A stretch of 27,039 nt of DNA from a virus: the IMG/VR virus record IMGVR_UViG_3300031857_001125, positions 1 to 27,039 of that record; one strand, written 5' to 3'. This document shows, piece after piece, positions 1,033-10,866 of this stretch. The notes under the pieces are model-generated. The model searched no databases, was not told the origin of the DNA, and was given only the letters and a program-made list of their open reading frames with translations. The translations under genes were made by a program, and so were the position numbers. Position 1 is the stretch's first letter; each line of letters begins with the position of its first letter.

Positions 1033-2904
1033 CTATTCGTACGAAGACATCTCGTAGTCGTTTACATTTACAGTAAATCGATTATCGAGTTGTTTGCGAG
1101 TTGCCCATCTATTTTTAACATGGGTTTGATTAATATTTCCATTATTTACTATTTCACGGGCTCTTAGTTCACAGAACCATAAAGCCATCACGCAGTCTGT
1201 AGGACCACGAGTATCAGGTTTCCAAGTAATCAATTGCTGTATTAAAGCCTTAATACCCTCAGAGCCTTCCTGAGAAGGAAGTTCTATTAGGTTATTATCT
1301 TGATGCAGGTTATTTCGCATAGTGCCAAATAGACCAGACATTGCGGCTACACCAAAAGATGTGTCCCACTTGTTCTTACCTGTGAATTGACTTGAGAATC
1401 TAATGCCTCTTGAGGCTAGGTATGAGTTTAGATCTGCGTCTAAGGCGTAAGCCTTCTGATGTGCATTAGTCTCAATTCTTAGTTCTTGAGGATTGTACTT
1501 TACGCACCAGTCCTCAATTAACTCTTGTATCTTTGCAGGTGTTGGATCTTTCATATTCTCAACATCTAGTATGTACCGTTTACGTGTCATACGATCTACG
1601 GTCATAACTACTGCTGCAGTTCTACCACTCATCGCTGGGTCTAAGCCCATGATGGTGTAATACGAACCTGCTTCTTTAGGATGCCCTGCTGCTCCTGGTT
1701 TTAGAGGGCCCCTCTTACGCATCCCATTGATGGAGCCTTGGATACAACCAGGTGGAAAAATAGAGTCTTCTTGTATGTCTTGCTGTTGGTATACCAAAGC
1801 CCAGGCAGAGGCCGAAACTTCACTTCGGCGCCTAAATAGAGCGGGGCCATTCCATTTTGGGTAGAGCCCATCTTCATCAGGTTGTACCTCTTCCTCGGAA
1901 CCTTCCCATGGTATATGGGACTTAGGCCATAATGTAACCCACTCTTCAGGGTCATCTGCAAATTCAAGTACTGCTGGCATGTTCATATATGTGAACGGTG
2001 TCTTGCCACTAGACCAATGCTCAGGATTACGTATCTCTCGATAGAGATCATTTGCTGCGATACGTGTTCCTACAATAAGTAACTTACCAGCATCACCAAG
2101 ACGAGTAATAACTTCTCGCTGTAGCCACAGTAGTTGCTTCTCCCACTCATGAGCGTTGGTAGTAGTCACAACGTCATCAAGGATAATTAGATCTGAACGA
2201 GCACCAGTGATCTGACCACCAATACCTAGAGCCTGTACAGTAGGATCTTTTTCGGTGGAGTCACGAGCCACATAGATGCGGTCAGCCTTCCAAGAGTCTG
2301 AGTCCTCTTTCCAACCACCAGCACTTCCATAGATGGCTTGCATCTTGGACCAGCGCTCATGGTTGAGGCGTTGCTTGATAGAGTATAAATACTCCTTGGC
2401 ACGCTCTTGGGTTTTGGAGACAATAGTAATTTTAACATTCGGATTCATAGCAATCCGATATACACAGTAGTTGACTGTGATGACTGTAGACTTAGCATGC
2501 TCAGGTGGCACGTTAATCAGTAGGCGTTTAGCAGAGGCTGGTTCATAGACCATAGCATCATGCAGCCAAGAAGGTACCCGACCTTCAAGGATATCAATCC
2601 AGTTCTGATGGTGTGGGAAGATCGGGCTATCTAAGAACTCCCTAGAGAACTCCTCAAAGCCAATCTTAAACTTAGCATCACCTGAGACAATGGAGAGAGC
2701 CTTCTGGCCTTCATCCTTTGCCTTCTCTAGTTCAGTCATGAACTTAGAGTCTTTCTTCCAGTCTTTCAGGACATCTGGTTTTCTGCCAGCCCTGATAATA
2801 GCATCTTGAATAGATAGACCTTGCCTTGCAAGATCAATAACCTTAGCCTTGGCCTCACGGAGTGCTATAACGCTATGGTGTTCAACGCCCTCTTTAAACC
2901 CCAT
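1033..2904 (-). CDS. terL: Terminase large subunit with N-terminal HTH extension
   Basis: This is the DNA-packaging motor, an ATPase plus nuclease. With the start at 2904 it has 623 residues. The ATPase part shows a Walker A-like NVPPEHAKS at about 131-139, Walker B LIILDDV at about 239-245, and a coupling-type GTR at about 279. The RNase H-like nuclease shows GLDPA (Asp about 422), RIETN (Glu about 478) and PTDCVMA (Asp about 570). Residues 18-63 form a predicted helix-turn-helix (GLSIQDAIIRAGR ... W ... F) like terminase small subunits. I chose ATG 2904 because GGAGG sits six bases before it; the longer reading from 2955 adds 17 residues that fall in a hairpin region and lacks such a site. 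No separate small subunit gene is adjacent. The portal gene follows immediately. Confidence 0.93.
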   Translation of the reverse strand: MGFKEGVEHHSVIALREAKAKVIDLARQGLSIQDAIIRAGRKPDVLKDWKKDSKFMTELEKAKDEGQKALSIVSGDAKFKIGFEEFSREFLDSPIFPHHQNWIDILEGRVPSWLHDAMVYEPASAKRLLINVPPEHAKSTVITVNYCVYRIAMNPNVKITIVSKTQERAKEYLYSIKQRLNHERWSKMQAIYGSAGGWKEDSDSWKADRIYVARDSTEKDPTVQALGIGGQITGARSDLIILDDVVTTTNAHEWEKQLLWLQREVITRLGDAGKLLIVGTRIAANDLYREIRNPEHWSSGKTPFTYMNMPAVLEFADDPEEWVTLWPKSHIPWEGSEEEVQPDEDGLYPKWNGPALFRRRSEVSASAWALVYQQQDIQEDSIFPPGCIQGSINGMRKRGPLKPGAAGHPKEAGSYYTIMGLDPAMSGRTAAVVMTVDRMTRKRYILDVENMKDPTPAKIQELIEDWCVKYNPQELRIETNAHQKAYALDADLNSYLASRGIRFSSQFTGKNKWDTSFGVAAMSGLFGTMRNNLHQDNNLIELPSQEGSEGIKALIQQLITWKPDTRGPTDCVMALWFCELRAREIVNNGNINQTHVKNRWATRKQLDNRFTVNVNDYEMSSYE

Positions 2905-2935
2905 ATATAACCTCCATAAAGATCCCCCTTCGTTC

Positions 2936-3243
2936 GGCGCCTCTAGGCGCCTCACTACCCCCTAAACGAGGAGCGCAATAAGCGCTCCGAGAAACTCGCT
3001 ATTTACTTCACGCTCGTTTTACGGTACATATATACTAACCCGTTCAACTATAGTAAACCGAACACCCTATGTTTGAAAGTAGTATAAATTACTGGCTTCA
3101 TATGATCTGAAAAAAATTAGAACTGATAGTGTATACATGCGCCGCAGGCGCTTTAAAGCACTGGGGTCGCGTTAGCGACACCTTGTGCGTCGGGCGAAGC
3201 CCTAAGAAGGTGCGAAGCACCTTATTCCCGAGCGAAGCGAGGG
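2936..3243. repeat. Cluster of short perfect hairpins upstream of terminase
   Basis: Seven independent inverted repeats lie in this non-coding stretch: 2936-2951 (GGCGCC, loop TCTA), 2970-2988 (GGAGCGC, loop AATAA), 3139-3151 (GCGCC, triloop GCA), 3166-3179 (GTCGC, loop GTTA), 3192-3202 (GGGC, triloop GAA), 3207-3223 (AAGGTGC, triloop GAA) and 3227-3243 (CCC..GC, triloop GAA, with tandem G/A mismatches). The last three share the GC-GAA-GC core, known from DNA biophysics as an unusually stable mini-hairpin. Between them, 3060-3135 is AT-rich with a run of A. The location between a terminator and the terminase start suggests a packaging or replication site, but that is inference. Confidence 0.8.
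3029..3057 (-). promoter_or_regulatory. Candidate promoter for terminase and portal
   Basis: On the minus strand TTTACT is followed after 17 bases by TATATA, about 125 bases before the terminase ATG. It matches sigma70-type spacing but only moderately in sequence. The transcript would start among the hairpins of this region. Confidence 0.35.
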
Positions 3244-3258
3244 CGATTTTTGGGCATT

Positions 3259-3294
3259 AAAAAACCCCCGCACACGTTCGCACGTGTACGAGGG
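3259..3294 (-). terminator. Rho-independent terminator after the 3313-3762 gene
   Basis: On the minus strand CCCTCGTACACGT and ACGTGTGCGGGGG pair over 13 positions (three G-T wobbles) around a GCGA loop, followed by six T. It lies 18 bases after the stop of the 149-residue gene and insulates it from the terminase unit. Confidence 0.9.
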
Positions 3295-3312
3295 CTGGTT
3301 TGTGTCGGTGGA

Positions 3313-3762
3313 CTATCTGCCGTTCATCTTTGCGAGTTCGTTCAGCACATCGAGAAGCACGTTGATTTGCTCGTGTGCTTCCGCTTTGATTGATTCAGCG
3401 TCCACGCTCTTGGTCTTGCGTGGCTTGCGTGGGGATTTAGTAGCAAGGATTTCCTGACCCTTTGCGCTGTCTGCATCGTGCCAGTTTTCCCGTGTGGTTT
3501 TCTCGGTTGCTGGCTTCTTGTTATCCACGCCAATTTCAGCGCCGATTGCAAAGATTCGGGCGAATAAATCTGCGTACCCGTTTTCGTCTGTGTCTGCTTC
3601 GTACTTGTTAGCAAGTGCATTAAGAGATTGGCTTGCCATGCGTAGGCGACTTTGAGCGCTTCCAGTTTTAGTTAGTGCGCTTTCCAAGCGGTTAGCGATT
3701 GATTTTTGTACATCTGAAGCAACTGGTAATTGCTCTGTTAACTCTTTGATTAGTGCGTTCAT
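3313..3762 (-). CDS. Hypothetical helical protein, 149 aa
   Basis: I do not recognise this family. The protein is mostly predicted helix, with an N-terminal half rich in Ala, Leu, Lys and Ser, a middle segment containing ADLFARIFAIGAEIGVD, and a lysine-rich linker (about 108-118, PRKPRKTKS) before a C-terminal amphipathic helix ending NELAKMNGR. There is no signal peptide or membrane segment. AAAGGATC eight bases before the ATG is a good ribosome site. The gene is monocistronic: its own terminator follows at 3259-3294, and a long divergent control region lies upstream. Such an isolated, separately regulated gene could be an early or DNA-binding protein given the basic linker, but nothing proves this. 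Confidence 0.8.
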   Translation of the reverse strand: MNALIKELTEQLPVASDVQKSIANRLESALTKTGSAQSRLRMASQSLNALANKYEADTDENGYADLFARIFAIGAEIGVDNKKPATEKTTRENWHDADSAKGQEILATKSPRKPRKTKSVDAESIKAEAHEQINVLLDVLNELAKMNGR

Positions 3763-3980
3763 TTTTTGATCCTTTCGAGATCGTTTTGCTTCTGCCTCTT
3801 TGGCATTGAGATAAGCCTATACCAAGCCAAGCCATTAACCTAATCTGAGCGTAAAACTGGGGCGTTTTGTCCTATTTTGTCCGTTTCTCTTTTGTGGTTT
3901 GTGTTGGTGATCTTTCCAACCAGCGCCAAGCGTATGCCCGAAATGTCCGATTTCCAGCGCACTCCAGCACGCACACGTGC

Positions 3981-3996
3981 TACATACATCGCTGTC
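3981..3996 (-). promoter_or_regulatory. Motif copy A (GACAGCGATGTATGTA)
   Basis: Minus-strand GACAGCGATGTATGTA differs from copies B and C at two or three positions. TATGTA could serve as an extended -10 box or the whole as an operator. It lies about 220 bases upstream of the minus-strand gene starting at 3762. Confidence 0.45.
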
Positions 3997-4038
3997 GTAC
4001 ACACGCACATGCAGCCGAAATCTCGCACGTACACGCAC

Positions 4039-4054
4039 TACATACCTTGCTGTC
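4039..4054 (-). promoter_or_regulatory. Motif copy B (GACAGCAAGGTATGTA)
   Basis: This is a second copy 58 bases from copy A in the same orientation. It shares 15 of 16 bases with copy C at 8607-8622. It is preceded by CGTGA, similar to the CGTGT before copy C. Confidence 0.5.
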
Positions 4055-4147
4055 TCACGCTCAAACACGTACACACCCTCGTTTGCAAACCCCTTTTGAT
4101 TAGATTTTCTATCATACGTACAGGTTTCTTTCTTTCTTTGGGGCTTT

Positions 4148-4176
4148 TTGATGCTGAAAAACTGATCTGCTATGAT
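4148..4176 (+). promoter_or_regulatory. Sigma70-type promoter of the plus-strand operon
   Basis: TTGATG (4148-4153) is separated by exactly 17 bases from TATGAT (4171-4176), close to the vegetative consensus TTGACA-17-TATAAT. Transcription would start near 4183, at the base of the first leader hairpin. This suggests the operon is read by the host housekeeping sigma factor, that is, early in infection. Confidence 0.72.
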
Positions 4177-4183
4177 GGTTTTC

Positions 4184-4260
4184 GGTGGTCAAAAGATCAC
4201 CAAGAAACTCTCTCGAGTGAGGTTAGTTCATTTCCTTCGTAGGCTCGAGAGGGTTTCTTT
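4184..4260 (+). ncRNA. Structured leader, possible attenuator or small RNA
   Basis: Two hairpins follow the predicted start site. The first pairs GGTGGTC (4184-4190) with GATCACC (4195-4201) around AAAA. The second pairs 14 bases at 4204-4217 with 4244-4257 (GAAACTCTCTCGAG against CTCGAGAGGGTTTC, one G-T wobble) around a 26-base loop and is followed by CTTTAA. The U-rich end makes the second hairpin a possible partial terminator, so the region could yield a roughly 75-base RNA or act as an attenuator before the first gene at 4282. Confidence 0.5.
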
Positions 4261-4281
4261 AATCATCACGAAAGGAACCAC

Positions 4282-4416
4282 ATGTATATCGAGATAACAG
4301 ACGGCATAGCGGTAATTATCGCCTTGTCGCTAAGTATCACGCTAATCACCACCACCGCACTACAAAATGCTCGGCTCACACGTCAAGTACGTGAGTTAAA
4401 GTCAGGCAGGAAGTAG
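4282..4416 (+). CDS. Small single-pass membrane protein, 44 aa
   Basis: The peptide begins MYIEITDGIAVIIALSLSI and ends in a basic tail (RLTRQVRELKSGRK). One hydrophobic segment covers about residues 8-28, so it should sit in the host membrane with the charged C-terminus probably inside. AAAGGAACC before the ATG is a good ribosome site, and the stop is two bases before the next ATG, so it is the first gene of the operon and translationally linked to the amidoligase gene. No family is recognised. A membrane anchor or host-takeover peptide is conceivable. Confidence 0.72.
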   Translation: MYIEITDGIAVIIALSLSITLITTTALQNARLTRQVRELKSGRK

Positions 4417-4418
4417 TC

Positions 4419-5966
4419 ATGCCTACCACACAGGTACCCCCAGAGGTACCGCAAGGTACGTTCAGCGCATACTATCGTGAGGAAGTATCCACTCATGATT
4501 GGTATGCCACGCTTACACAAGAGCAAGTTGTTGCTCTCGACAGCATCGTATTCCACCACACAGGTTGGGGTAATTGCGATTGCGGTAGGAGTGGCAGGTC
4601 TTACTCTTACTCATGCTACGGCAACGTGTTAGTCCTGAATAAATGTCAGCGTTGCGTACGTGCTTTCGTAGTCAATAACGATAACGTTGTGAATAGCGTG
4701 TACAATCGCTTGACCTCGTTAGATGAAATCATGCCTCTCGGAAGTTTCCCATCAGACACATCGGAACGTCAGATGTGTACTTGTGGTGATTTCATTTTCC
4801 ACGAAGGCGATCATGCAGTACGTAGGCTGATAGAGTCCACGTATGCACACAGTAGTTCCGCAACCGATGAGCCTGTCTTAATCCATAAGTCATGCTCGTT
4901 CTCGTGTAATATGTGCCATGAAGTGTTTACTTCTAACAGGCGCTTGAGTTCGTATTACTACAATGGTCGTCAGATATGCGGAGATTGTGCGATTATCTGC
5001 TCAGATGCAGATGACGTGTACTCATGCGATAACTGCGCTTATTACTTCGATGAAACCTTCTACTCCGAGTGGCGCCAACGTGATCTATGTCGTGAGTGCT
5101 ATGACGAGGAAGTCGAGTGTAATGAGTGTGGATACATGACAAACGAGGATTACATGGACGATCACGAGTGTTATCGTGATAGTTCAGGTATCTACGATTA
5201 CTCATACAAGCCAACCCCTGTATTCTACGGGCACGATGACTACTACTTCGGTATCGAGTTAGAGGTCGAGGATAAGGACAACTGGTCTTGTGGCGCAGGT
5301 GCAGAGATCGTGTATGACACACTCGGAACTCGAGTGTATTGCAAGCATGATGGCTCACTCAATGACGGCTTCGAGATAGTATCTCACCCACACTCACTCG
5401 AGGAAGTACAAAAACTAAACTGGAACTTCTTGCGTGCCTTACGCAACAAAGGTTTCCGTTCATGGGATACAGATACATGTGGCTTACATGTTCACGTATC
5501 TCGCACAGCGTTTCGTAAAGACGGCAAGCATAACGAAGCACACGAACTACGCTTCCAAAAACTTATTTACGATAACAGCGCTCAAGTGTGTGCAATAGCA
5601 GGTCGCTCAAGTTCATACGCAAGGTTCATGGACAAAGGACACCTAGTACCTAAGGTCAAGCACGGACAATCGGCTGATAGGTATGAAGCAATCAACATAC
5701 AAAACGATCACACACTCGAAATCAGAGTGTTCAAAGGCTCACTCAAGAAAGAGCGTGTCTTATCTGCGGTAGAGTTTATCCACTCTGCCATTGAGTACAC
5801 ACGTACCATGAAAATTAACCCAAGAGATAAGCAGTTCTCATGGATACGCTTCATGGCTTACGTGTTAGACAATCAAGCCAAGTACTCAAACTTCGTGCAA
5901 GTCGCACTAAGTTCACTCGACAAACCGCTAGTACCATCATCACACATAGACGAGGAGAATAACTAA
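4419..5966 (+). CDS. Predicted amidoligase with N-terminal Zn-finger array
   Basis: The C-terminal half (about 270-480) has the hallmarks of the COOH-NH2 (amidoligase, PF12224-like) ligases of the glutamine-synthetase-like fold: FGIELEVE at 277-284, KHDGSL at 309-314, EIVSHP at 319-324, CGLHVHVS at 354-361 and EIRVFKGSL at 434-442. These acidic, His and Arg residues are expected to bind Mg-ATP and the acid substrate and form an amide bond. The N-terminal half (about 53-251) holds some twenty Cys in paired CxC and CxxC knuckles (for example 163/166, 187/190, 203/206, 224/227, 234/237), that is several Zn ribbons or LIM-like fingers, probably for substrate or partner binding. The domain call comes from motifs; the substrate is unknown. 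The downstream gene overlaps its stop (TAATG) and encodes a glutamine amidotransferase that could supply ammonia. CAGGAAG precedes the ATG. Confidence 0.8.
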   Translation: MPTTQVPPEVPQGTFSAYYREEVSTHDWYATLTQEQVVALDSIVFHHTGWGNCDCGRSGRSYSYSCYGNVLVLNKCQRCVRAFVVNNDNVVNSVYNRLTSLDEIMPLGSFPSDTSERQMCTCGDFIFHEGDHAVRRLIESTYAHSSSATDEPVLIHKSCSFSCNMCHEVFTSNRRLSSYYYNGRQICGDCAIICSDADDVYSCDNCAYYFDETFYSEWRQRDLCRECYDEEVECNECGYMTNEDYMDDHECYRDSSGIYDYSYKPTPVFYGHDDYYFGIELEVEDKDNWSCGAGAEIVYDTLGTRVYCKHDGSLNDGFEIVSHPHSLEEVQKLNWNFLRALRNKGFRSWDTDTCGLHVHVSRTAFRKDGKHNEAHELRFQKLIYDNSAQVCAIAGRSSSYARFMDKGHLVPKVKHGQSADRYEAINIQNDHTLEIRVFKGSLKKERVLSAVEFIHSAIEYTRTMKINPRDKQFSWIRFMAYVLDNQAKYSNFVQVALSSLDKPLVPSSHIDEENN

Positions 5967-6793
5967 TGTGTATGTTATGCGTAGTTCCACCCAACGTACT
6001 ACCATCGAGAGAGAAGTTAACTTACTCTGCGATAAATAATCCTGACGGCTTCGGCTTCGCAATCGTTGTATCCAGCGAGAAGCGCATCATCGTGGAACAC
6101 ACGATGAACCCTGACGATGCTGTCAATCGTTTTCTCGAGATGCGTGCAAAGTATCCCGATGATTACGCACTATGGCATGCTCGCTATGCCACACATGGCA
6201 CAACCAATCTTGCTAACTGCCACCCGTTTTACGTGGTAGATAACCAAACTGTGCTGGCACACAATGGCGTATTACCGATAGATATTCCAGCAGGTGATAC
6301 ACGTTCTGACACACGTATCTTTACCGAGGACGTACTCGCCCCAATGGGCGGTGTTAAGGCACTCGATAATCCTCACATGTACAACATGGTCGAGGAGTAC
6401 ACGTCAGGTTCCAAGTTGTGCATACTCACAGTTGACCCACGTGCCGAGTATCAAATGTATCTCATACACTCAGACAAGGGTGCAGAGGACGAGAGCAAAG
6501 TGTGGTGGTCAAACGATAGTTGCAAGGCTGACTACGGCTACTCACGCTGGATACCCAGTCAAGCGTACGATAGTTTCTACCCTTCGTACGATCATTACAG
6601 CACTCAAACGGAAGGTGTGTTCCCATGTGTAGGTTGCTACGCACTCATTGACGAGGACAGACTAGAGAAGGACGCAATATGTCCAATGTGTCTAACGTGT
6701 CAATGGTGTGATATGCACACAGAAACATGTATGTGCTACAAGCCAACCACTAAACTGCCTGACAGTACATACTCAAACGCATGGGGGCTATAA
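5966..6793 (+). CDS. Class II glutamine amidotransferase with C-terminal Zn knuckles
   Basis: This enzyme should hydrolyse glutamine to release ammonia, using an N-terminal Cys exposed after Met removal (Met1-Cys2). Family motifs are in order: NPDGFGFA at 25-32, WHARYATHG at 70-78 (substrate-binding Arg 73), CHPF at 85-88, HNG at 99-101 and SDTR at 114-117. These match the Ntn-type GATase II fold. The last 60 residues add at least four CxxC or CxC pairs (221/224, 239/242, 245/248, 255/257), probably one or two Zn ribbons that could dock on the similar fingers of the upstream amidoligase. No synthetase domain is fused, so the partner must be separate. GAGGAG lies upstream and the start overlaps the amidoligase stop as TAATG, implying coupled synthesis. 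Confidence 0.85.
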   Translation: MCMLCVVPPNVLPSREKLTYSAINNPDGFGFAIVVSSEKRIIVEHTMNPDDAVNRFLEMRAKYPDDYALWHARYATHGTTNLANCHPFYVVDNQTVLAHNGVLPIDIPAGDTRSDTRIFTEDVLAPMGGVKALDNPHMYNMVEEYTSGSKLCILTVDPRAEYQMYLIHSDKGAEDESKVWWSNDSCKADYGYSRWIPSQAYDSFYPSYDHYSTQTEGVFPCVGCYALIDEDRLEKDAICPMCLTCQWCDMHTETCMCYKPTTKLPDSTYSNAWGL

Positions 6794-6987
6794 TGAAACG
6801 CATAGCAAAGCAACCACCAGCAAGGGCACACGCAAGCATGGCTGAAATGTGCTACAAGCACTACGAAATAGCGATAGGTAAACGCAACATGGTGGACGCC
6901 AGCAGGTGGCTACTCAAGGCACACACCTATCGTGAGAAGGCTGGACAAATCGGACACGAGAAGGAGTTGGAAAATGAGAACCGCTAA
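6793..6987 (+). CDS. Hypothetical helical protein, 64 aa
   Basis: The start at 6793 overlaps the stop of the amidotransferase (TAATG), with GGGGGC just upstream; a reading from 6781 adds four residues and is less likely. The sequence (MKRIAKQPPARAHAS ... KELENENR) is charged and helical, with a mid segment YEIAIGKRNMVDASRWLLKA reminiscent of a TPR-like helix pair. No Cys cluster or membrane segment is present and no family is recognised. Its place between the amidotransferase and a run of Zn-ribbon peptides suggests it belongs to the same operon. Confidence 0.7.
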   Translation: MKRIAKQPPARAHASMAEMCYKHYEIAIGKRNMVDASRWLLKAHTYREKAGQIGHEKELENENR

Positions 6988-7135
6988 GTGCATAGACACA
7001 CGTTGCTACAAGTGTGATGTACCTATATGGGTACCAGTACACGATTACAACGTGGAAAGAAACTACTGCTACTCGTGTGGCATGTCCAAGATTGGGGTGT
7101 TAAGTGGCTACTACGCTACGCAAGAAGGTGTGTGA
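6974..7135 (+). CDS. Zn-ribbon mini-protein, 53 aa
   Basis: AAGGAG at 6961-6966 fixes the ATG at 6974, 14 bases inside the previous gene. The peptide starts MRTAKCIDTRCYKCDVPIW and contains two CxxC knuckles (CYKC at 11-14 and CYSC at about 32-35), the pattern of a single four-Cys zinc ribbon. Such ribbons in phages are typically nucleic acid or protein binding. Target unknown. Confidence 0.75.
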   Translation: MRTAKCIDTRCYKCDVPIWVPVHDYNVERNYCYSCGMSKIGVLSGYYATQEGV

Positions 7136-7448
7136 TTGGGATAATGTCGAGTGGAAAACTACTCGCACAGGCAACCAAACCGCAACCATCATGCTCAATG
7201 CTGGCGAGTATTTTCACATCGAGGAAGGCTGGGAAATTGATGGCCCGATACGTGTGAAGATAACTTACTCACCAAGCACAGATCGGACTAGCGCTAGGTA
7301 TTCTCCTCTGCCTAGCGATAAGTTCGATATAGATAATCCATACGAGTACCCTTGTGCTTCGTGTGGTGCTGAGCGCCATGTTCCATGTGTGGGAGATGAT
7401 GCTAAATGTTCCTTCCGTGTATTCCTAATGAAAGGCGGTATGCTGTGA
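7104..7448 (+). CDS. Hypothetical protein with C-terminal Cys motif, 114 aa
   Basis: The frame opens with GTG at 7104, overlapping the previous gene; another GTG at 7128 is possible, and neither has a strong ribosome site (GGGGTG precedes 7104). The middle is beta-rich (TATIMLNAGEYFHIEEGWEI). The end carries CASCGAERHVPC and a fourth Cys (KCSF), similar to a CxxCGAxxxxPC element common in actinobacterial and actinophage proteins that usually binds zinc. The stop overlaps the WhiB-like start as GTGA. Function unknown. Confidence 0.65.
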   Translation: MATTLRKKVCDWDNVEWKTTRTGNQTATIMLNAGEYFHIEEGWEIDGPIRVKITYSPSTDRTSARYSPLPSDKFDIDNPYEYPCASCGAERHVPCVGDDAKCSFRVFLMKGGML

Positions 7449-7822
7449 GTTTTTTCCCGAAGTTCAGGAACGAACCATTGTGTACAAACTCAGACACACC
7501 TGACGATTGGTTCCCTGAGTTTGATCTTGTGCGTGGTGATAGGAAGGGTATTCGTGATAGATACTCATACACACCTAGCGCCATGCGTGCAAGAAACACA
7601 TGCTTAAACTGTCCTGCGTATGAGGAGTGCTTAGAGTATTCCTTACAATGGACTGATCTCGTAGGTATATGGGCAAACCTAGATACGTATGAGCGTAGAG
7701 AGGAACAACGTGCGAGAAATATACAAACAACAAGTTTGACTTTCACGTATGATAATCCACTAGATATAAACATCGTGCCTAGAATACACGATAGAGATGA
7801 GTGGGAAAATGAACTACAATAA
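7445..7822 (+). CDS. WhiB-like transcription regulator
   Basis: The GTG at 7445 is chosen because AAAGGCGG lies eight or nine bases upstream and it overlaps the preceding stop as GTGA; a longer reading from 7406 would add 13 unrelated residues. The 125-residue protein has the Wbl pattern: Cys13 before a D..DWFPE segment, then Cys53, Cys56 and Cys62 in NTCLNCPAYEEC, then GIW at 74-76. The four Cys normally hold a 4Fe-4S cluster, and the GIW turn contacts the primary sigma factor. Here the usual GVWGG is GIWANLD, so the two Gly after Trp are replaced. WhiB proteins occur only in Actinobacteria and their phages, which is the best host clue here. A basic patch for DNA binding is weak (ERREEQRAR), so it may act on sigma rather than on DNA. 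Confidence 0.87.
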   Translation: MSFFPKFRNEPLCTNSDTPDDWFPEFDLVRGDRKGIRDRYSYTPSAMRARNTCLNCPAYEECLEYSLQWTDLVGIWANLDTYERREEQRARNIQTTSLTFTYDNPLDINIVPRIHDRDEWENELQ

Positions 7823-7928
7823 TGATGAGTTCACACAGGAAACTGTGTGGGAACAGTTGCGTATAATAGCGTGGATATCTTTCACCACGCTAGGAGTTTT
7901 ATGCGCAATACTTTCGGTGGCGCTATGA
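7809..7928 (+). CDS. Small membrane peptide, 39 aa
   Basis: The ATG at 7809 lies inside the end of the WhiB-like gene, with GAGTGGGAAA before it. The peptide starts MNYNNDEFTQETVWEQLRI and continues with one hydrophobic stretch (IIAWISFTTLGVLCAILSVAL) to the stop. It is therefore a C-terminally anchored membrane peptide with a short acidic head. It overlaps the following ATG as ATGA. No family is recognised. Confidence 0.65.
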   Translation: MNYNNDEFTQETVWEQLRIIAWISFTTLGVLCAILSVAL

Positions 7929-8026
7929 TGTGTAGATATTGTAAGCGCCAGCGAGAGGCTGGCATACAGGATAATATCCCTGCGTGCCATGCTTGCTACG
8001 TAAAGAAGGGTGGAATAAATGAGTGA
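7925..8026 (+). CDS. Zn-ribbon micro-protein, 33 aa
   Basis: The peptide MMCRYCKRQREAGIQDN... has CxxC at its start (CRYC) and again near its end (CHAC), enough for one zinc ribbon. The start overlaps the previous stop (ATGA), GGTGG lies upstream, and the stop overlaps the next gene's first codons. The tight coupling on both sides supports a real gene despite its size. Confidence 0.62.
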   Translation: MMCRYCKRQREAGIQDNIPACHACYVKKGGINE

Positions 8027-8201
8027 TTTACATACCTATCGAGTAAAGGCTAAGTGCATGGTTAGTGTCTATCAAGACATAACGTGTGATGACGTGGAGA
8101 GAGCCGTGTACTTAGCCCTCGATGCAGTTAATGAGTGGAACGTTTATTCGCTAGACGAAGCCGAAGTCAAGCGTGTACTAGAGGTGGAAAGGATAGACTA
8201 A
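8019..8201 (+). CDS. Hypothetical protein, 60 aa
   Basis: The protein begins MSDLHTYRVKAKCMVSVYQD and has a predicted strand-strand-helix-strand pattern (acidic helix VERAVYLALDAVNEW, then a C-terminal EVKRVLEV). AAGAAGGGTGG before the ATG is a good ribosome site. It resembles the next gene product in start (MSD), size and layout, so the two may be diverged duplicates. No function can be assigned. Confidence 0.7.
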   Translation: MSDLHTYRVKAKCMVSVYQDITCDDVERAVYLALDAVNEWNVYSLDEAEVKRVLEVERID

Positions 8202-8365
8202 TGAGCGACAAGTATGAAGAAAAATACGTGCTACGTGTGGAATTAGTGGCACGAGATGGCGTGTATTACGAAGGTATCTGTAATGTACAAAATCTAATAG
8301 ATTACAAATTGCGTGATTACTTTCACGTAAAGACTACTGAAATCAAGCAAGTGGTATCTGCCTAA
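8201..8365 (+). CDS. Hypothetical protein, 54 aa, last gene of the plus-strand operon
   Basis: I placed the start at 8201, where ATG overlaps the preceding stop (TAATG) and GGAAAGGA lies upstream; a longer frame from 8135 runs through the previous gene. The sequence MSDKYEEKYVLRVELVARD ... EIKQVVSA has the same strand-helix-strand feel as the 60-residue protein before it. The operon terminator follows 12 bases after the stop. Function unknown. Confidence 0.7.
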   Translation: MSDKYEEKYVLRVELVARDGVYYEGICNVQNLIDYKLRDYFHVKTTEIKQVVSA

Positions 8366-8377
8366 TACCACGTAAAG

Positions 8378-8411
8378 AAACCCTCACGACTCCTTGCGTG
8401 GGGGTTTTTTT
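8378..8411 (+). terminator. Terminator of the plus-strand operon
   Basis: AAACCCTCACG (8378-8388) pairs with CGTGGGGGTTT (8397-8407) over 11 positions around an eight-base loop, and the T run continues to 8411. The same bases also encode the C-terminus of a minus-strand mini-protein (8384-8551). Confidence 0.92.
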
Positions 8412-10331: not shown

Positions 10332-10546
10332 TAGTCGCCACACTCACATACAAAGTCGTCATCCATATCGTCAAATGCATAATCGGCTATGCTAAATAAT
10401 TCGCCTTCTAAAACCTCATCAACGATAGTATCAAGTTCTCCCTGATTAAGTACATACCATTCTGAGTTTCCGTCTATAGCGAGATGTATCTTAAAGAACA
10501 AACGCATTAACCACTCAAATGGTTTGCCTAATAAGTATCTTATCAT
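10331..10546 (-). CDS. Hypothetical protein, 71 aa, acidic C-terminus
   Basis: The first 25 residues are hydrophobic and basic (MIRYLLGKPFEWLMRLFFKIH), possibly an amphipathic or membrane-surface helix. The rest is strongly acidic, ending in DDMDDDFVCECGD. Both ends overlap neighbours (ATGA at its start, TAATG at its end), so it is translated as part of the operon. No family is recognised. Confidence 0.65.
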   Translation of the reverse strand: MIRYLLGKPFEWLMRLFFKIHLAIDGNSEWYVLNQGELDTIVDEVLEGELFSIADYAFDDMDDDFVCECGD

Positions 10547-10866
10547 TTATCCCATTTTCCTCTCAGTACCAACAATGCGATTATCGCATAGTTTGCTAAG
10601 TCCTTAAATGAATCCTCGAAAGGTTCATGTTCAGGTGCCATATCCCTAACGCTGTCATATAAGTTATTTATACGAGCAGTCTTATCATGGATACGAACTC
10701 TTAGGCCATTGATGGCACCACCTGGTGCATTTGCTATGTTCTTTGGGCCGTAATCTTTATGCTTAGACAGCAATAAATCTACAAGTTCTTCTACTGTTTC
10801 CCATACACCTATCTCAAAGTCACTTGGATCAGGAATGTTATTATTTATTTTCGTCACTTTTGCCAT
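10543..10866 (-). CDS. Nmad1/DUF1599-like protein
   Basis: This 107-residue protein contains LLSKHKDYGPKNI, then GLRVRIHDKTARINNLYD and FKDLANYAIIALLVLRG. That arrangement (KHKDYG, R..DK..R..NL, D.ANYA) matches a small phage family often labelled DUF1599 or nucleotide-modification-associated domain 1. The domain was linked by comparative genomics to hypermodified DNA bases, though no biochemical role is proven. The start lies 26 bases inside the upstream gene, with GAGGAG about 13 bases before it. Recognition is from memory of the motif, so moderate confidence only. Confidence 0.6.
   Translation of the reverse strand: MAKVTKINNNIPDPSDFEIGVWETVEELVDLLLSKHKDYGPKNIANAPGGAINGLRVRIHDKTARINNLYDSVRDMAPEHEPFEDSFKDLANYAIIALLVLRGKWDK

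Follow-up and report, generated by a model that had tools for sequence, protein, structure and literature searches.

A glutamine synthetase-fold amidoligase and a class II glutamine amidotransferase, both with predicted zinc sites, are paired in a phage operon

The window, the whole 27,039-nucleotide stretch of DNA analyzed here, is a 27-kb virus record that carries a gene for a COOH-NH2 ligase followed directly by a gene for a class II glutamine amidotransferase (GATase). The two proteins have the folds of their families and retain intact catalytic residues and conserved Cys and His residues at predicted zinc sites, and their genes are found together at nearly every locus where either was identified. 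On balance we lean toward the view that they encode the subunits of a single glutamine-dependent amide synthetase; that its target lies in the host envelope is a guess. The pair belongs to a block of genes on the plus strand (about 4282-8365) that runs from a membrane peptide through the ligase, the glutaminase, and proteins of 68, 53, and 114 amino acids to a WhiB protein and small ORFs.

Folds and active sites of the ligase and the amidotransferase

The ligase gene (4419..5966, plus strand; ATG at 4419, TAA ending at 5966) encodes 515 amino acids. An earlier note on this DNA had predicted a COOH-NH2 ligase, and this is borne out by a match to the Pfam family Amidoligase_2 (PF12224; E=2.5e-7, 31.3 bits against a cut-off of 22) and by structural matches to the GS fold. 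The same profile matches 69 of the 73 aligned members of the ligase family, and the window protein also matches the PHROG 'amidoligase enzyme' families 2443 and 7469. A Foldseek search with the AlphaFold model (mean pLDDT 89.7, with 72 relatives in the alignment) returned YbdK (3.2e-7), glutamine synthetase (4.4e-5), the gamma-glutamylmethylamide synthetase GmaS (4.9e-5), and the Pup ligase PafA (5e-4), all with a probability of 1.00, and Dop is also among the best structural matches; a structural match to the COOH-NH2 ligase fold, set beforehand as a refutation test, was therefore found. Low TM-scores (about 0.2-0.36) probably reflect the lack of an equivalent of the zinc region in those targets, and the fold assignment thus stands on the E-values and motifs.

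The model, the structural matches, and the invariant residues place the catalytic GS-like domain at residues 276-500 (5244..5918, plus strand). Gly278, Glu280, Glu282, Lys309, Asp311, Ser313, Glu319, His357, His359, Asn426, Glu434, and Arg436 are invariant in 73 ligases that span environmental actinophage-like contigs, OM43 phages, and Clostridia, and they resemble the metal, ATP, and substrate residues of the glutamine synthetase family. The GxExE, HxH, and ExR active-site motifs of GS-type COOH-NH2 ligases are intact in the window protein. As judged from profile, motifs, and model, it is a GS-fold COOH-NH2 ligase, with ATP-dependent amide formation as its predicted activity. A PADLOC search for defense systems gave no match for either the ligase or the GATase.

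The downstream gene (5966..6793, plus strand; ATG at 5966, stop ending at 6793) encodes a class II (Ntn) GATase of 275 amino acids. It matches GATase_4 (1.5e-7) and GATase_6 (1.7e-6), both past the Pfam cut-off, and its length leaves no room for a synthetase domain, in agreement with the earlier description of a glutaminase lacking its own synthetase. The structural matches of its AlphaFold model (mean pLDDT 83.9) are led by the GlmS glutaminase domain (4e-7) and PurF, with EgtC behind them. A profile of the family finds GlmS (1.8e-13), then GFAT and PurF, with EgtC not among its matches at E<=1; NCBIfam gave weak glmS/purF matches only. The nucleophile Cys2 and His71, Arg73, Thr76, Gly78, His86, Asn100, Gly101, and Asp115 are invariant in 48 GATases and are shared by the actinophage-like, OM43, and Clostridia members. 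The window protein thus has the Cys2 nucleophile, Arg73, the HNG motif, Asp115, and the GlmS/PurF glutaminase fold that define class II enzymes.

Pairing across phage and bacterial genomes

The ligase and GATase ORFs share one nucleotide (TAATG, with the GATase ATG starting inside the ligase stop), as expected from the earlier description of adjacent, overlapping genes. Among loci fetched with the GATase, the ligase lies immediately before it on the same strand in 142 of 148, and in the remaining six the contig ends on that side; among those fetched with the ligase, a GATase is present in 79 of 81, the exceptions being one locus cut by its contig (L166) and one aberrant locus (L234). Many contigs were fetched repeatedly, and the figures to be used are those for proteins clustered at 70% identity, at which pairing holds for 50/50 GATase clusters and 71/73 ligase clusters. 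One of the two unpaired ligase clusters is cut by its contig and the other is the second ligase of L258, a locus in which the order is reversed (1370-6647), with the GATase followed by a 644-aa ligase-like ORF and then by another ligase-like ORF. The core clade by itself provides 115 distinct protein pairs. Spacing between the two genes ranges from -146 to +45 bases, with the most negative values arising from over-long ORF starts. The conserved co-occurrence, the absence of which was the other refutation condition set beforehand, shows that the pairing is near-obligatory and not due to chance. The earlier note had treated the two genes as a pair, which the co-occurrence upholds; pairs of this kind in phages had already been published.

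Beyond the core clade, the pair is present in mycobacteriophages, OM43 phages, a spring podovirus, and Clostridia genomes, the last found with a Clostridia-type query. The Clostridia loci, which encode an amidoligase, a GATase, and a DUF3846 protein, resemble the window in having a ligase with three zinc sites and a GATase immediately downstream; unlike in the window, the GATase belongs to a different class II subfamily and lacks a zinc tail, and the setting is chromosomal and apparently that of a mobile element. The involvement of another GATase subfamily implies that the combination of ligase and GATase either persisted or arose twice. A ligase of the same family in Clostridioides phage AR1086-1 (L007, 3671-4783) has neither the zinc array nor an adjacent GATase, and a ligase of this family therefore need not always use a GATase.

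In Mycobacterium phage Marvin (gp105/gp106) and its cluster relatives, the gene order is the same and the frames overlap as in the window. The Marvin GATase is 34% identical to that of the window over 97% of its length, and both have the zinc tail; the Marvin ligase has a similar Cys-rich N-terminus, but is only 28-32% identical and has fewer zinc sites, and no WhiB gene is annotated beside the pair in the stretch of Marvin examined, unlike in the window. The OM43 phages MEP401 and MEP402 also carry a two-gene pair, with a 10-nt overlap and conserved catalytic residues (PMC10580990); in contrast to the window, they have about one zinc site in the ligase and no zinc tail in the GATase, and the pair lies before the primase/helicase.

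The 'peptidoglycan modification cassette' of phiEco32, LUZ24, and PSA-HP1 likewise combines an amidoligase and a class II GATase in a non-structural block (PMC5498523; PMC3890496). Phage amidoligase/GATase pairs are thus already known from Marvin, the OM43 phages, and LUZ24-like and PSA-HP1-like phages, and in the window the cassette is reduced to two genes. GGCT (PF06094) is absent from 17 window-type records, which may be fragments, with a positive control, a difference from the phiEco32/LUZ24 cassette; the phiEco32-type ligase (PF14395) is likewise absent from 17 window-type records, the positive control being the record of L255; and the proteins scanned from the window and its 42-kb closest relative gave no ATP-grasp match. 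The L255 phage contig (2946-8877) links the two-gene form with the larger cassettes already published: besides a zinc-bearing pair, it encodes a second Amidoligase_2 protein, a phiEco32-type PF14395 COOH-NH2 ligase, and a second class II GATase.

Two further observations bear on physical association but fall short of proof. Evolutionary distances of the ligase correlate with those of the GATase at 0.82, compared to 0.48-0.66 with other phage genes, and the partial correlation of 0.63 exceeds that of all pairs except toprim-sigma (0.86). However, toprim and sigma reach 0.94, above the ligase and GATase, so linkage alone could yield correlated distances, and we do not take correlated divergence as proof of contact. 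A single ORF that matches both families (L234, 2446-4026) is not proof of a one-enzyme form either; missing from it are the C-terminal end of the ligase, the N-terminal end of the GATase with the catalytic Cys2, and some of the zinc array. It is probably the product of a deletion or an assembly chimera and was left uncounted.

Zinc arrays and operon context

Both proteins contain the Cys knuckles described in the earlier note. In the N-terminal half of the ligase, 20 Cys/His residues within residues 53-251 (4575..5171, plus strand) are kept in 82-100% of 44 sequences (nonredundant at 85%), while the remaining cysteines (66, 194, 291, 308, and 391) are not conserved. From their spacing, these residues can be assigned to five predicted zinc sites, with the putative ligands 53/55/76/79, 120/122/156/159, 163/166/187/190, 203/206/224/227, and 234/237/249/251. 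Sites 3-4 are LIM-like in a profile comparison (CRP2 LIM at 7e-4); Pfam LIM matches 8 of the 73 ligase relatives, and the window ligase itself has no match. In the GATase, eight C-terminal cysteines (residues 221-257; 6626..6736, plus strand) form two further predicted sites, C221/224/239/242 and C245/248/255/257, conserved at 76-97% and confined to the core clade and phage Marvin. Zinc binding at the sites of both proteins is a prediction from these patterns.

Outside its ligands, the zinc region of the ligase averages only 25% identity, compared with 58% in the catalytic domain, and yet the zinc ligands stay fixed, which suggests a module for recognizing a target or partner that varies. Site 1 is missing from a short-ligase subclade, sites 3-5 reach the Clostridia members, and the OM43 phage ligases retain only about site 5. 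The earlier note took the two zinc modules as a sign that the proteins dock through them. This part of its proposal is not supported: the pairs of OM43 phages and Clostridia are kept despite the missing GATase zinc tail, and the OM43 phages have about one ligase site in place of five. As pairing is equally strict without the tail, it does not require docking of zinc module to zinc module. In the literature covered we found no description of the five-plus-two zinc architecture, the micropeptide, or the leader RNA, which is not proof of novelty; a search for amidoligases with a zinc ribbon or finger gave nothing relevant among its eight best matches.

Of the companions named in the earlier note, WhiB and membrane peptides, the WhiB protein and one membrane peptide were identified. 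The first gene of the operon, just upstream of the ligase, encodes a 44-aa micropeptide with a single membrane helix (4282..4416, plus strand), and a similar hydrophobic ORF precedes the ligase gene at about 21 of 48 loci of the core clade. Downstream of the pair, all on the plus strand, are a conserved 68-aa protein of unassigned function whose gene overlaps the end of the GATase (6781..6987; related ORFs in 38 loci), a 53-aa CxxC...CxxC zinc-knuckle protein (6974..7135) with analogous ORFs in relatives such as L234, a conserved 114-aa protein with a Cys knuckle at its end (7104..7448; related ORFs in 23 loci), and a WhiB-like Fe-S transcription factor (7406..7822; Pfam Whib, E=3e-9; 50 loci). 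A terminator-like site follows the block at 8388-8406, although sites of this kind are no more numerous than expected by chance.

At the head of the operon, a consensus scan identified a promoter-like site (4148..4176, plus strand; TTGATG-17-TATGAT, with TG before the -10), which is suggestive by position only, as the scan found 5 such sites where 9.1 were expected, not above chance. It is followed by a structured leader (4184..4259, plus strand) of two hairpins (about 4184-4201 and 4203-4259), supported by folding and covariation and placed just upstream of a conserved CACGAAAGGA ribosome-binding site that precedes the micropeptide. Each of 20 distinct leaders folded singly forms the second hairpin, and at positions 5, 6, 7, 9, and 10 of its stem both partners change, giving 3-6 pair types; the pair types were counted from these single-sequence folds, as a sequence-based alignment misplaced the second stem. 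An Rfam search of the leader gave no match, and deeper relatives have other hairpins at the same position. The leader may be an attenuator or regulator site, or a DNA operator. Upstream of the operon, 19 loci conserve the region 3877-4242 as an ORF that is probably spurious; this stretch may be regulatory DNA.

Proposed role, alternatives and probable host

In the amide synthetase that we propose, the Ntn glutaminase would hydrolyze glutamine through Cys2 and ammonia would pass to the GS-fold ligase, which would use ATP to convert a target carboxylate to an acyl phosphate and then to an amide. The transfer of ammonia and the formation of a complex are steps that we infer. The fast-evolving zinc array of the ligase would most likely bind either the target or a helper protein; the micropeptide at the operon head may place the enzyme at the membrane. 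In actinobacteria, an AsnB/LtsA-type class II GATase enzyme amidates diaminopimelate, a precedent for the proposed chemistry. The substrate and the purpose of the pair are a matter of guesswork; the most likely target would be a carboxylate of the host envelope, such as the stem-peptide Glu or diaminopimelate of peptidoglycan, the amidation of which would alter the cell surface, lysis, or superinfection. The host-directed tagging or envelope modification suggested in the earlier note is likewise a guess. Among the operon genes, no other one that modifies the envelope was recognized. A working analogue is found in Staphylococcus aureus, where the co-transcribed ligase and glutaminase genes of MurT/GatD amidate peptidoglycan Glu (PMC3267633); the folds of MurT/GatD (a Mur ligase and a CobB/CobQ-like, class I-type GATase) are unrelated to the GS-like and Ntn folds of the window pair, which does not belong to that family. 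An envelope carboxylate has also been proposed as the target of the podovirus cassettes (PMC5498523; PMC3890496), and the idea of an envelope target was repeated for the OM43 phages (PMC10580990). A more specific version, in which a membrane-recruited, zinc-scaffolded two-subunit amidase of phages of aquatic actinobacteria acts on one specific envelope carboxylate under a new leader RNA control, is quite improbable.

Against the amide synthetase reading, GS-fold ligases and Ntn proteins also serve pathways that ligate and then hydrolyze. Here the ligase would attach an amine to a glutamyl carboxylate, and gamma-glutamyl amides would later be cleaved by the Ntn protein, as for EgtA/EgtC and PuuA/PuuD. 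The appearance of EgtC among the structural matches of the GATase, and of the amine users YbdK and GmaS among the best matches of the ligase, is consistent with this; nevertheless we regard it as unlikely, as the GATase profile is nearest the ammonia donors GlmS and PurF and does not find EgtC. The glutamine- and gamma-glutamyl-binding residues do not discriminate the two readings. The structural similarity of the ligase to PafA and Dop would also fit the formation of isopeptide bonds on proteins, with the zinc array docking protein targets, a role in keeping with the LIM-like sites 3-4, as LIM domains bind proteins. However, the PafA match is weaker than those to YbdK and GS, the glutaminase would be superfluous, and no tag peptide was recognized among the operon genes, which makes protein tagging decidedly unlikely.

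A carboxylated base or nucleotide is a very unlikely target for amidation by the pair; in that case, its zinc fingers would bind nucleic acid. The same phages do encode a DUF1599 protein ('nucleotide modification associated domain 1'; window 10543-10866, 1.8e-5; 55 loci), but its gene is outside the operon of the pair, and scanning proteins of the window and its closest relative turned up no gene for a base hydroxylase, deazaguanine, or glycosylation. We give the least weight to a general contribution to host nitrogen assimilation during infection, which has been proposed for a chronic planctomycete phage with an amidoligase, a GATase, a glutathione synthase, and GGCT (PMC10945688); the growth effects in that study come from the whole phage and not from these genes, and the zinc arrays together with such strict pairing point to a specific target, so that this role would be highly improbable.

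Unrelated phages as well as Clostridia genomes carry amidoligase/GATase pairs, for which the literature covered establishes no substrate. The lineage of the window is a good test case, as its cassette has two genes and more than 100 distinct natural pairs reveal which residues must be kept; the homologous pair of Marvin, which infects Mycobacterium smegmatis mc2 155, makes the question of the substrate directly testable.

The record of L011 is a relative of 42,018 bases whose ligase and GATase are 81% and 93% identical to those of the window; it looks circularly complete because both of its ends fall within the same tail gene, and one strand carries most of its genes. The window terminase is nearest to that of the unannotated phage ct2KA10 (57%) and then to those of Streptomyces phages (45%), and the sequences nearest to the WhiB protein are from mycobacteriophages; on these grounds the host is probably actinobacterial. 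Neither ct2KA10 nor the terminase-matching Streptomyces phages were among the matches of the ligase search, and the pair therefore appears to be accessory and not core in such phages. In the closest relative phage, a proteasome-subunit-like Ntn protein (L285, 15709-16278, minus strand; Pfam Proteasome, 3.7e-8) is encoded amid the head genes.
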